Both the position numbers and the translations under genes were made by a program. 47,987 nucleotides of DNA from Alkalidesulfovibrio alkalitolerans DSM 16529 (lineage in GTDB: Bacteria; Desulfobacterota; Desulfovibrionia; Desulfovibrionales; Desulfovibrionaceae): contig NZ_ATHI01000010.1 of NCBI RefSeq assembly GCF_000422245.1, positions 1 through 47,987 of the forward strand. Reading direction: 5' to 3'. The notes beneath the pieces were generated by a model. That model made no database searches. It was not told the origin of the DNA and worked only from the letters and a program-made list of their open reading frames with translations. Positions 27,936 through 47,932 of the stretch are shown here, in pieces (the first letter of the stretch is position 1; every line of letters begins with the position of its first letter).

Positions 27936-28106
27936 TTCAACCCGGTATGTTACAAGCTTAGTATCTTCAGTTGCAGTTGCGGCGCACCACTAGGACAGCA
28001 CGGCGTGCGGGCCGAATGCTGCCCTCTGCTAGCCTAAATCGCGAACCGAGGCAAGCACGACGTGACCAGTATACGTCCCGGCCCTGTTTGCTGTAGAACA
28101 GCTCGC

Positions 28107-28889
28107 ATGACGGACACGCCACACTTTCATGACGAACAACCGACCATCCTCGCGGGCCGGCACCCCGTGGAAGAAGCCCTGCGCGACTCGCCCGGACGGG
28201 TGCTGAACGTGCTCGTCCTGCGCGGCCACAAGGGCGGCCCCACGGACCGCATCCTCGACGCCTGCCGCGCGTCCGGAGTCCGCTTCAAGCTGGCGGAAAA
28301 GGCCGAACTCGATCGGCTCTACAAAGGGCCGCACCAGGGCGTGGTGGCCTTGCTCGCGCCCATGGAGAACGTCACTCTCGACGACCTGACTACAGCCATG
28401 GAAAAGGCTCCCCTGCCGCTCATCGTCGCCCTGGACCAGGTCCAGGATCCCCACAACGTGGGCGCGCTGGCGCGGACCCTGCTAGCACTGGGCGGCGCGG
28501 GCCTGATCCTGCCCAAACACGGCGCTGCGCGGCTCGGCCCAGGGGCGCTCAAGGCCTCGGCCGGGGCGCTTTCGCGCCTGCCCGTGGCCCGCGTGACGAA
28601 TCTCGCCCAGGCGCTCGACGCATTGGCCATGCACGGGCTGGAAATCCATTGCGCCTCGACCGGCCCCGGCGCGACAAGCTGCTACGAGGCGCGGCTCGAT
28701 CTGCCGGCCGTGCTCGTCTTGGGCAACGAGGGCCAGGGAGTGCGTCCTGGCGTGGCCAAGCGCTGCGGATCGCGCCTGACGATCCCCATGACGGGAGGGT
28801 TCGATTCGCTGAACGTGGCTCAGGCCGGAGCCATCCTCATCTCGCACTTTGCGCGCGCGGCCTTGCAACCGCGCGGCTCAGGCCGTTGA
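28107..28889 (+). CDS. rlmB: 23S rRNA 2'-O-ribose methyltransferase, TrmH/SpoU family
   Basis: A 260-residue SPOUT methyltransferase. The substrate-binding front domain starts ILAGRHPVEEALRDSP. The catalytic domain shows ALDQVQDPHNVGALARTLLA (motif 1), VLGNEGQGVRPGVAKRC (motif 2) and IPMTGGFDSLNVAQAGAIL (motif 3), the deep-trefoil-knot SAM site. The ATG at 28107 is preferred; a GTG at 28062 is in frame. The last codons and stop (TCAGGCCGTTGA, 28878-28889) belong to the arm of a dispersed repeat. RlmB is likeliest; another rRNA/tRNA SpoU specificity cannot be excluded. Confidence 0.9.
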   Translation: MTDTPHFHDEQPTILAGRHPVEEALRDSPGRVLNVLVLRGHKGGPTDRILDACRASGVRFKLAEKAELDRLYKGPHQGVVALLAPMENVTLDDLTTAMEKAPLPLIVALDQVQDPHNVGALARTLLALGGAGLILPKHGAARLGPGALKASAGALSRLPVARVTNLAQALDALAMHGLEIHCASTGPGATSCYEARLDLPAVLVLGNEGQGVRPGVAKRCGSRLTIPMTGGFDSLNVAQAGAILISHFARAALQPRGSGR

Positions 28890-28999
28890 AGAAGTCCCAT
28901 CCGCTGTGCTGCCGCAAAAAGTTCACACCCTCGCGGGCTGTACTACGCGTCGGCCGTGAACTTTTCTTGCGCCTTGCATCCGGAGCCTTTTGACCGGCC
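28878..28999 (-). repeat. Dispersed hairpin repeat, copy A (also a likely bidirectional terminator)
   Basis: Read on the - strand it aligns over its whole length with copy B at 42551-42676, sharing GATGCAAGGCGCAAG and GGCCGACGCGTA among others. AAAAGTTCAC (28917-28926) and GTGAACTTTT (28956-28965) form a ten-pair stem with T-rich ends on both strands. It lies between convergent rlmB and fliQ and overlaps the rlmB stop codon. Confidence 0.8.
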
Positions 29000-29064
29000 C
29001 GCGAAATTGAATTCACGAGCAACCTCAGCCGCTCATCGGCCCGGCCTATCTCATTTCGTGCGAA

Positions 29065-42519: not shown

Positions 42520-42538
42520 GCAACGCCGCAGATGGCGC
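42520..42538. repeat. 19-base direct repeat of the copy B right arm
   Basis: GCAACGCCGCAGATGGCGC here is identical to 42642-42660 inside the hairpin repeat just downstream. It appears to be a truncated tandem remnant of the same element, in front of the threonine aldolase gene. Confidence 0.8.
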
Positions 42539-42550
42539 TACTCCATCTTC

Positions 42551-42676
42551 GCAGGCCGCTCAAAATGCGTCAGATGCAAGGCGCAAGGGAAGTTCAAGGC
42601 CGACGCGTATTGCCAATACGCGAGGGTTTGAACTTCTCGCTGCAACGCCGCAGATGGCGCATTTTCAGCGGCCTGC
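42551..42676 (+). repeat. Dispersed hairpin repeat, copy B
   Basis: A nested palindrome. Outer arms 42551-42569 and 42658-42676 pair over 19 bases with one mismatch. Inner arms GAAGTTCAA (42589-42597) and TTGAACTTC (42628-42636) pair perfectly, and the tip is CGCGTATTG and CAATACGCG (42604-42622) with one base between. It aligns with copy A on the opposite strand and overlaps the stop codon of the flavin-binding protein gene. No open reading frame or transposase is inside. Confidence 0.9.
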
Positions 42677-43135
42677 CGCCGGGTTGCGCTTGCCGGTGAG
42701 CATGTCGGGCGAGAGCGCCAGCACGCAGGTGGCGGCAAGCGCCGCATCCGGGAACTCGGGCGCTACGCCGGGCAGAAGCTGCCGGGTGATGACCGAAAGC
42801 CCCTTGCGCTTCTCCGCCTCGTCCTCGACCACGCGAAGCTTGCCCCAACCGCAGACGCTGGCGTAATGCGCCGTGGCCTCGCAGGGGCTTTGCGCGGAAA
42901 CCACGGCGTAGTCCACGAGCACGGAAAAACCCGCGCGCGGGTCGCGGGCCAAAAGGTCGAGCCGCGTGCCCTCGCGCGCGCAGTGCAGCCAGATCACGCC
43001 GTCCTCGTAGCCGTAGTTCATGGGAACCACGTATGGCCCCTCGGCCGCGTTCAGGGCCAGGTGTATGACCTGCCCGCGCCGAAGAAGGGCCTCGATTTCA
43101 CCCTGGTCCTTGATTTCCCGAAGCGCCTTGCGCAT
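42665..43135 (-). CDS. Pyridoxamine 5'-phosphate oxidase family (flavin-binding) protein
   Basis: A 156-residue split-barrel protein. VIHLALNAAEGPYVVPMNYG and the next GVIWLHCAREGTRLDLL match the FMN-binding PNPOx-like/Nim-like family. Later ATAHYASVCGWGKLRVVED and the KRKGLSVITRQL helix support it. The substrate is unknown; it need not act on vitamin B6. GGAGG precedes the ATG at 43135. The last codons and stop (GCA GGC CGC TGA) lie in the arm of the repeat, so the natural C-terminus may have been changed by insertion. Confidence 0.9.
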   Translation of the reverse strand: MRKALREIKDQGEIEALLRRGQVIHLALNAAEGPYVVPMNYGYEDGVIWLHCAREGTRLDLLARDPRAGFSVLVDYAVVSAQSPCEATAHYASVCGWGKLRVVEDEAEKRKGLSVITRQLLPGVAPEFPDAALAATCVLALSPDMLTGKRNPAAGR

Positions 43136-43186
43136 GGTATCCTCCGCTGGCGCGGTCTTTTGCCGCGCGCAGACCCTTATGTCACC

Positions 43187-43945
43187 ATGACGAGTCGAGC
43201 GAAAGACCCCATCCCCCGCCTGAGCGTCGTCATTCCGGCGCTTGGCGAGGCCGCGACCGTCTGCCGGGCCGTTTCCTCCGTGGCCCTGGCTGCCGCTTGC
43301 GCGGACATGGTGGCCGAGGTCGTCGTGGCGGACGCCGAGCCCGGCGACGGCGGTTCGACCCTGTCCGCGCTCGACCGCCTCGACCCGGCCGCCCGCTCGC
43401 GGCTGGCCGGGGTGCGTGGCCTGCGCGCGCCGCAGGGCCGGGCCAGGCAGATGAACGCGGGCGCGGCAGCGGCCAGGGGCGAAATCCTGCTCTTTCTGCA
43501 CGCGGACACACGCCTGCCCGAAACCGCCCTGGCCACGGCCGCGCGGCTATTGGACAACGGCGCGCGAGCCGGGGCCTTCGGCCTTGAGATCGACTCGCCG
43601 CGCGCCTCGATACGGTTCATCGCCCGGATGGCCACGCTGCGCGCGCGATTCCTGGGACTGCCATTCGGCGACCAGGGGCTTTTCCTACGCCGCGACCTGT
43701 TCGAAAATCTTGGCGGCTTCGCGGACCTGCCGCTCATGGAGGACGTGGAGTTCGTGCGCCGCCTGGCCAGAAACGGCGCGCGCCCGGTCGTGGCCCGTGA
43801 AAACGTCGTGACTTCGGCCCGCCGCTTCGAGCGGTTGGGGCCGCTGGCCTGCACCTTGCGCAACTGGACGCTGCTCTCGCTCTACCTGCTCGGCGCGCCG
43901 CCCGCGCGGCTGGCCCGCTTCTACCGGCCCATGGGAGGCGCATGA
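43187..43945 (+). CDS. Family 2 glycosyltransferase, TIGR04283-like
   Basis: A 252-residue GT-A fold transferase. LSVVIPALGEAATVCRAVSS starts it; the metal/nucleotide-binding part is LLFLHADTRLP, and LGLPFGDQGLFLRRDLFENL matches the subgroup named rSAM/selenodomain-associated transferase 2. Its stop overlaps the start of a TIGR04282-like gene, the usual partner. Neither a radical SAM gene nor a selenodomain gene is nearby. The sugar donor and acceptor are unknown; the following genes suggest surface glycans. Confidence 0.9.
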   Translation: MTSRAKDPIPRLSVVIPALGEAATVCRAVSSVALAAACADMVAEVVVADAEPGDGGSTLSALDRLDPAARSRLAGVRGLRAPQGRARQMNAGAAAARGEILLFLHADTRLPETALATAARLLDNGARAGAFGLEIDSPRASIRFIARMATLRARFLGLPFGDQGLFLRRDLFENLGGFADLPLMEDVEFVRRLARNGARPVVARENVVTSARRFERLGPLACTLRNWTLLSLYLLGAPPARLARFYRPMGGA

Positions 43946-47869: not shown

Positions 47870-47932
47870 CGCACTGCCTAAAGGCGTGCTGCAACCTCTT
47901 CGCATGCGGCTGTTCACAAGCCTCGTCTCTCG

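Follow-up and report, generated by a model that had tools for sequence, protein, structure and literature searches.

A nested-palindrome repeat of Alkalidesulfovibrio alkalitolerans that is probably a MITE mobilised by an IS5/IS1182-group transposase

Introduction

The window, which is contig C10 of Alkalidesulfovibrio alkalitolerans DSM 16529 (positions 1–47987; 47,987 nucleotides), contains three copies, termed A, B, and C, of a dispersed hairpin repeat. The locus raises the question of what such a repeat is, where its ends lie, and by what means it spreads. The original prediction was of a folded mobile repeat without a gene, likened to REP/BIME sequences and moved by an outside enzyme or spread in another way. 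A folded, mostly intergenic, gene-less mobile repeat is indeed what emerges, from its many copies, its paired substitutions, and the empty sites in congeners. The kinship that we find is a different one: the repeat is probably a MITE that depends on a DDE transposase of the IS5/IS1182 group acting in trans, with two modes of insertion.

Copies of the repeat in the window

Copies A and B are real, as a covariance model of the family places both within 2 nt of the coordinates first proposed for them (Table 1). Copy C was recognised in the alignment and by eye, without a covariance-model score. The blocks of A, B, and C are collinear, as first described, and of copy C only the left half is present, the rest being cut off by the end of the contig. 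The location of the contig end inside this copy suggests that the assembly was probably broken at the repeat. The claim that each copy forms a long hairpin is borne out by copy B, which folds far better than its shuffles (0 of 200 as good), and not by copy A (z -0.84), whose fold is equalled or bettered by 38 of 200 shuffles. Copy A therefore looks decayed.

A stretch of 19 nt upstream of copy B is identical to positions 92–110 of that copy (blastn against the A. alkalitolerans genome, E 0.008). The copies are gene-less, as had been stated, but each right end contributes the TGA stop codon of a neighbouring ORF, which is rlmB/SpoU-like for copy A and pyridoxamine-oxidase-like for copy B. Copy B used as a query against plasmids and phages gave no match.

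Table 1. Features of the repeat in the window, and the IS copies of a relative (G010) with which it is compared.
Feature	Position or locus	Strand	Basis
Copy A, palindrome part, decayed	28879..29001	-	Covariance model, 104.1 bits, E 1.9e-20; alignment with B
Copy A, left leader, GAGGTTGCTCGTGAATTCAATTTCG	29002..29026	-	Likeness by eye to the leader form given in the text
TGA stop of rlmB/SpoU-like ORF 28062-28889, within the right end of copy A	28887..28889	+	Sequence; gene family assignment
Likely right-arm remnant of another copy, truncated and in tandem with B on its upstream side	42520..42538	+	19-nt identity
Copy B, palindrome part	42552..42675	+	Covariance model, 143.9 bits, E 7.7e-30; fold z -8.39
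TGA stop of pyridoxamine-oxidase-like ORF 42665-43501 (-), within the right end of copy B	42665..42667	-	Sequence; gene family assignment
Copy C, left leader, GCGGCTGTTCACAAGCCTCGTCTCT	47906..47930	+	Likeness by eye to leader GAGGCTGTTGAAAAACTC
Copy C, left half, ending with contig C10	47931..47987	+	Alignment; sequence
IS1182-family IS copies of G010	L206, L223, L231, L302-L308		

Family size, anatomy, and ends

The count of three copies in 48 kb understates the family. The covariance model, built from 29 of 30 copies fetched by blastn (L029 was left out of the alignment), finds the repeat in at least 147 places in the 3.2-Mb genome (E <= 5.7e-5; 150 of 2411 candidates scored). A blastn search with copy B alone finds at least 43 places (E <= 2.1e-13; 40 of 197 candidates scored). 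The predicted paired substitutions are also present: the arms of the palindrome covary, with 16 of 43 pairs changed on both sides, as compared to 6.8 in shuffles and 2–8 in slid structures, and 97.4% of the cells of the palindrome alignment are paired.

The flanks were analysed in 103 copies, which include copy B and exclude A and C; copies lacking either of the two core motifs or lying too near a locus end were set aside. Information in these flanks rises weakly above background from about -25 to -1 on the left of the palindrome and over a single base on its right, beyond which there is little information and a slight preference for CTAG. The raised information on the left implies an element of ~150 bp. 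The element thus consists of a 25-nt left leader followed by a nearly perfect palindrome of 124 bp, and contains no gene. The boundaries first proposed fit the palindrome to within 2 nt and miss the leader.

The leader has roughly the form GAGnTTGTTGACAAACYCnTTTTTC, lies outside the palindrome, and is conserved in part of the copies. Matches of at least 16/25 to two leader consensuses, which were themselves drawn from the same 103 copies, occur in 27 copies and in 0 of 309 shifted windows; the other 76 copies fall below this threshold. Allowing up to three mismatches, the leader pattern has 30 sites in the genome and the reversed pattern none. In copies of the L027 type, the leader agrees with the reverse complement of the right end at 14/19 positions, and in copies with CAGGCTG...CAGCCTG ends the two are weakly alike (<13/19), both being ungapped comparisons of hand-picked 19-nt ends. 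The element ends are GAGnTTGTTGACAAAC / CAGCAGCCTG.

At two loci (L127 at C3:108676 and L138 at C2:38498), the leader is by eye fused to the right end and the palindrome is absent, yielding a solo form of ~35 bp, which at L127 has TTAA on both sides. Such forms possibly arose when CTTTTTCAG repeats, which stand on either side of the palindrome, underwent slippage. Six copies of the element in this genome (L079, L098, L103, L115, L122, and L123) adjoin another GC-rich repeat, made up of ggaggaggcagcgcctcctcc and neighbouring sequence.

Placement relative to genes

The palindromes lie mostly outside genes and close to gene 3' ends, as judged with a crude codon-usage gene caller that is error-prone. 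Called genes are overlapped by the palindrome in 4 of 103 copies. Among the 93 copies having two neighbours, 59 lie between co-directional, 30 between convergent, and 4 between divergent genes. Gene 3' ends fall within 10 nt of the palindrome in 45 of 119 cases, as compared to 3 of 67 for gene 5' ends. Copy B was scored as divergent because the caller missed the pyridoxamine-oxidase-like ORF; by Pfam matches, it sits between two minus-strand genes.

Distribution and empty sites

A 20-kb stretch of the A. alkalitolerans genome (C4:95000-114999) contains six palindromes at four sites, all of which are absent in both congeners (G001 and G002) by alignment. At one of these sites (L027), A. alkalitolerans has CTAG, 150 bp, and CTAG, where just one CTAG is present in G002 and CTAA in G001. 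The flanks at the other three sites are too diverged for the exact scar to be read.

Among 59 genomes sampled from relatives, 34 have a match to the palindrome, as do at least 66 of 297 genomes sampled across the phylum (A. alkalitolerans included in both; 11 candidates scored per genome in the latter). The distribution of the family is patchy. In the two congeners, a search with the leader pattern gave no match, and the copies fetched from G002 have no clear leader by eye. G002 does have tandem arrays of the palindrome (C64:313128-314125, C63:92506-93217, and C4:118487-119030), spaced by ~292–294 or 209 bp. The richness of G002 in palindromes, along with these arrays and the lack of a leader match, means that another mode of spread or amplification may apply to a portion of the family. 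A scan of viral contigs gave 12 matches, and in 190 nt of each no hairpin flank or right end was seen by eye; we take these matches as chance or promoters.

The empty sites bear on the possibility that the palindrome has been retained to serve the cell, namely as a bidirectional terminator, an mRNA 3' stabiliser, or a structured RNA, and that mobility is merely its origin. The strong placement at gene 3' ends and the covariation of the arms speak for such a function. However, the four tested sites lack the palindrome in congeners, a search of the window against Rfam gave no match at gathering scores, and a scan around copy A found no terminator-like site. Covariation would also be expected if the two arms of a DNA palindrome served as templates for each other's repair, or if the ends were required to match. 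We therefore regard a function of this kind as improbable, and favour mobility by transposition as the explanation of the family.

Insertion scars

Direct repeats flanking the element provide further evidence of insertion. Eight of the 103 copies have such repeats at a score of at least 9, as compared to 0.05 expected from permuted flanks, and in the remaining 95 no long direct repeat was seen. The repeats are 25 bp (L011), 24 bp (L039), 21 bp (L010), and 17 bp (L030) in length, along with others of 14, 11, and 9 bp; the repeat of L034 is 19 bp with two mismatches and fits better when inverted. The repeated sequence is by eye a hairpin in at least five of these copies (L011, L039, L010, L034, and L031).

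Two kinds of scar can be distinguished, along a division of the copies by their ends that was made post hoc from the same data: long repeats occur in 7 of the 19 copies with CAGGCTG...CAGCCTG ends and in 1 of the 84 others (p 1.8e-5). Six of the 19 CAGGCTG-type copies have a stem of at least 7 abutting their left side, as compared to 1 of 19 control windows. The second kind of scar is the tetramer YTAR, which in 18 of 103 copies stands immediately to the right of the element, against a background of 0.14% per site. By the same post hoc division, it is found in 0 of the 19 CAGGCTG-type copies and 18 of the 84 others (p 0.039). The same tetramer stands beside the leader in 3 of these 18 copies and in 0 of 108 control windows. 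As YTAR holds an opposite-strand TAG or TAA stop codon and many right ends touch stop codons, the signal may in part reflect stop-codon selection.

Hairpins also accompany the palindrome in G231, a genome that is kin to A. alkalitolerans only at the phylum level. By eye, a hairpin precedes all 11 fetched palindromes, and a matching hairpin lies on the far side in 8 of the 11 (5 direct and 3 inverted), a count that comes without a shuffled control. In these three (L309, L311, and L314, with a small margin at L309) and in L034 of A. alkalitolerans, the far hairpin agrees more closely with the near hairpin in inverted than in direct orientation. Inverted far hairpins could be due to flipping of the loop after insertion or to copying from the other strand.

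These inverted pairs are not predicted by simple target duplication, and none of the sites compared was seen to be empty with just one hairpin present. Both observations lend something to the view that the flanking hairpins did not come from transposition, and are instead two similar terminators that were already present or products of replication slippage. To this view we give little credence, as the repeats are exact over 24–25 bp in A. alkalitolerans and over 21–40 bp around 7 of 10 copies of an IS described below, and permuted flanks give almost none. Duplication of the hairpin at insertion thus remains our preferred reading.

Transposase search and related elements

The repeat has inverted-repeat-like, IS-like ends and target duplications, features not known from REP units. 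Spread by a RAYT (Y1 HUH) transposase, as in the REP/BIME analogy originally drawn, is very improbable: the element resembles REP/BIME sequences as a short, palindromic, intergenic repeat of many copies and, in G002, of regular tandem spacing, but Y1_Tnp (PF01797) has 0 matches in the A. alkalitolerans genome (completeness given as 100; a control search gave matches in 10 of 14 genomes, above the cut-off in 6), and its 124-bp palindrome within a ~150-bp element is longer than the REP unit described in PMC3733652, which is 20–40 bp and tagged GTAG or CGTC.

Two domain models of the IS5/IS1182 group were searched. DDE_Tnp_1_6 (PF13751), searched in A. alkalitolerans, had 0 matches there; DUF772 (PF05598), searched in A. 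alkalitolerans and relatives, had 0 matches in this genome and in the two congeners. Among the 59 genomes, PF05598 does not track the palindrome, being present in 9 of the 34 that have the palindrome and in 9 of the 25 that lack it. An IS1182 transposase was thus not found in the host by these models.

An IS with similar ends occurs in relatives. G010, which belongs to the same family, has ten IS copies (1571 bp long in nine cases and 1384 bp in the tenth; Table 1) with a DUF772 transposase. The transposase at L206 belongs to the IS1182 family (NF033551, 463 bits against a cut-off of 270; PF13751 and PF05598 also above cut-off). Exact direct repeats of whole hairpins flank 7 of the 10 copies, with lengths of 40, 33, 32, 29, 24, 22, and 21 bp. 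In ISfinder, IS1182 is entered with long direct repeats. Two copies scored as misses, L304 and L305, have a single hairpin in common, apparently through recombination and an exchange of flanks.

G010 also has a gene-less repeat of 139 bp, for which three copies were found, two of them with hairpin repeats (26 and 34 bp, lengths by eye). In ungapped comparisons of hand-picked ends, those of this repeat match the ends of the G010 IS at 14/19 and 16/19 positions, and the A. alkalitolerans leader matches the 139-bp repeat at 16/19 and the left end of the IS at 14/19. The palindrome itself has no match in G010 or in G027, the two relatives with similar IS ends.

Similar ends are found further afield as well. 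A leader scan of named genomes gave six stretches, three of which are from Pseudogulbenkiania (L235, L237, and L239), and the other three contain no such element by eye. The Pseudogulbenkiania stretches, from P. subflava and P. ferrooxidans, are copies of a different gene-less repeat of ~140 bp, by eye with similar hairpins on both sides, which has the left end of the A. alkalitolerans element and contains 18 nt of its leader exactly (19/19 for a longer form in L239). P. subflava further has an IS5-family IS (NF033581, 293 bits) with ends CAGGCCGTTGAAAAAG and, by eye, a TTAG duplication; its end agrees with the right end of L027 at 16/19 positions in a hand-picked, ungapped comparison.

Proposed mechanism and its implications

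The repeat has the attributes of a MITE in its small size (~150 bp, within the <500 bp typical of such elements), its lack of a transposase gene, its target site duplications, including the CTAG duplication that has an empty counterpart, and its presence or absence among close relatives. Insertion at hairpins, as would be characteristic of mobilisation by IS1182, is seen in the CAGGCTG-type copies and by eye in G231. From the fit of its ends and target behaviour, we infer that the copies were inserted by a transposase of the IS5/IS1182 group, and that the hairpin repeats were made at insertion by cutting at the feet of stem-loops.

In the proposed mechanism, the right arm of the palindrome would double as the right end and the 25-nt leader would constitute the left end. 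A DDE transposase of the IS5/IS1182 group, acting in trans, would recognise both ends and insert the element mostly just 3' of genes. One mode would leave a 4-bp duplication of YTAR (CTAG or TTAG) as its scar. The other, operating mainly on CAGGCTG...CAGCCTG copies, would insert at the foot of a terminator-like hairpin and leave the whole stem-loop repeated across the element, through cleavage at the feet of the extruded stem-loop.

A wider version of this mechanism, which we put forward tentatively and hold somewhat less probable than not, is that gene-less hairpin transposons exist across the phylum, whose transposase cuts the feet of extruded terminators such that both sides of the insert keep a terminator, sometimes a flipped one. 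If so, the insert would be self-insulating, with both neighbouring transcripts keeping their terminator, and hundreds of copies could therefore accumulate harmlessly. This suggests a route by which transposons may build up at gene ends without harm to termination. A flipped second hairpin would mean that the stem-loop can be copied from either strand of the cruciform, an outcome of strand transfer that we did not find described in the literature consulted.

What had been an anonymous nested hairpin repeat is hence seen as mobile, with ends that are defined, sites that are empty in congeners, and a rule for its targets. Its ends and targets, along with the transposase, offer concrete substrates for the study of structure-directed transposition.

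Comparison with known systems

The closest parallel in target choice is with the IS1182 family, as exemplified by IS1272 and TnSha1, which like the present element insert into hairpins, often terminators (PMC5678879 and PMC4923244). In the accounts given there, IS1272 targets hairpins, several of which are terminators, and the hairpin is replaced or partly deleted, for IS1272 and TnSha1 alike, without a target duplication. In contrast, the A. alkalitolerans element has the hairpin on both sides and has no transposase. PMC5678879 outlines a model path whereby joining takes place at the 5' feet of the extruded cruciform and duplicates the whole stem-loop, and both the IS of G010 and the elements of CAGGCTG type resemble natural cases of this path. 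They would represent an apparent natural duplication of a whole stem-loop by IS1182-type transposition, which PMC5678879 puts forward only as a model.

With respect to the IS5 family, the P. subflava IS and its TTAG duplication resemble the CTAG/TTAG subgroup of A. alkalitolerans copies. The P. subflava IS is autonomous, whereas an IS with exactly the ends of the A. alkalitolerans element was not found beside it.

Prokaryotic MITEs, among them Correia, Chunjie of Geobacter, and QMITE, are described in PMC10969869 as typically <500 bp in length, with end repeats and a stem-loop, and with target duplications in younger copies. The present element differs from these in its GC-rich nested palindrome, in the hairpin repeats at its target, and in having its left end outside the palindrome, with Chunjie compared by description. 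The multicopy nucleotide sequences of Geobacter, which as presented in PMC2700814 and PMC2996986 are palindromic families located largely in intergenic regions, are similarly numerous and could be relatives of the repeat; these too were compared by description only. We recognised no description of the repeat in the literature, with the Geobacter supplements and Chunjie lying outside this comparison, and make no claim of its absence from print. The kinds of element to which the repeat belongs, MITEs and hairpin-targeting IS1182 elements, are known; what would be new is a nested-palindrome MITE located between repeated terminators.
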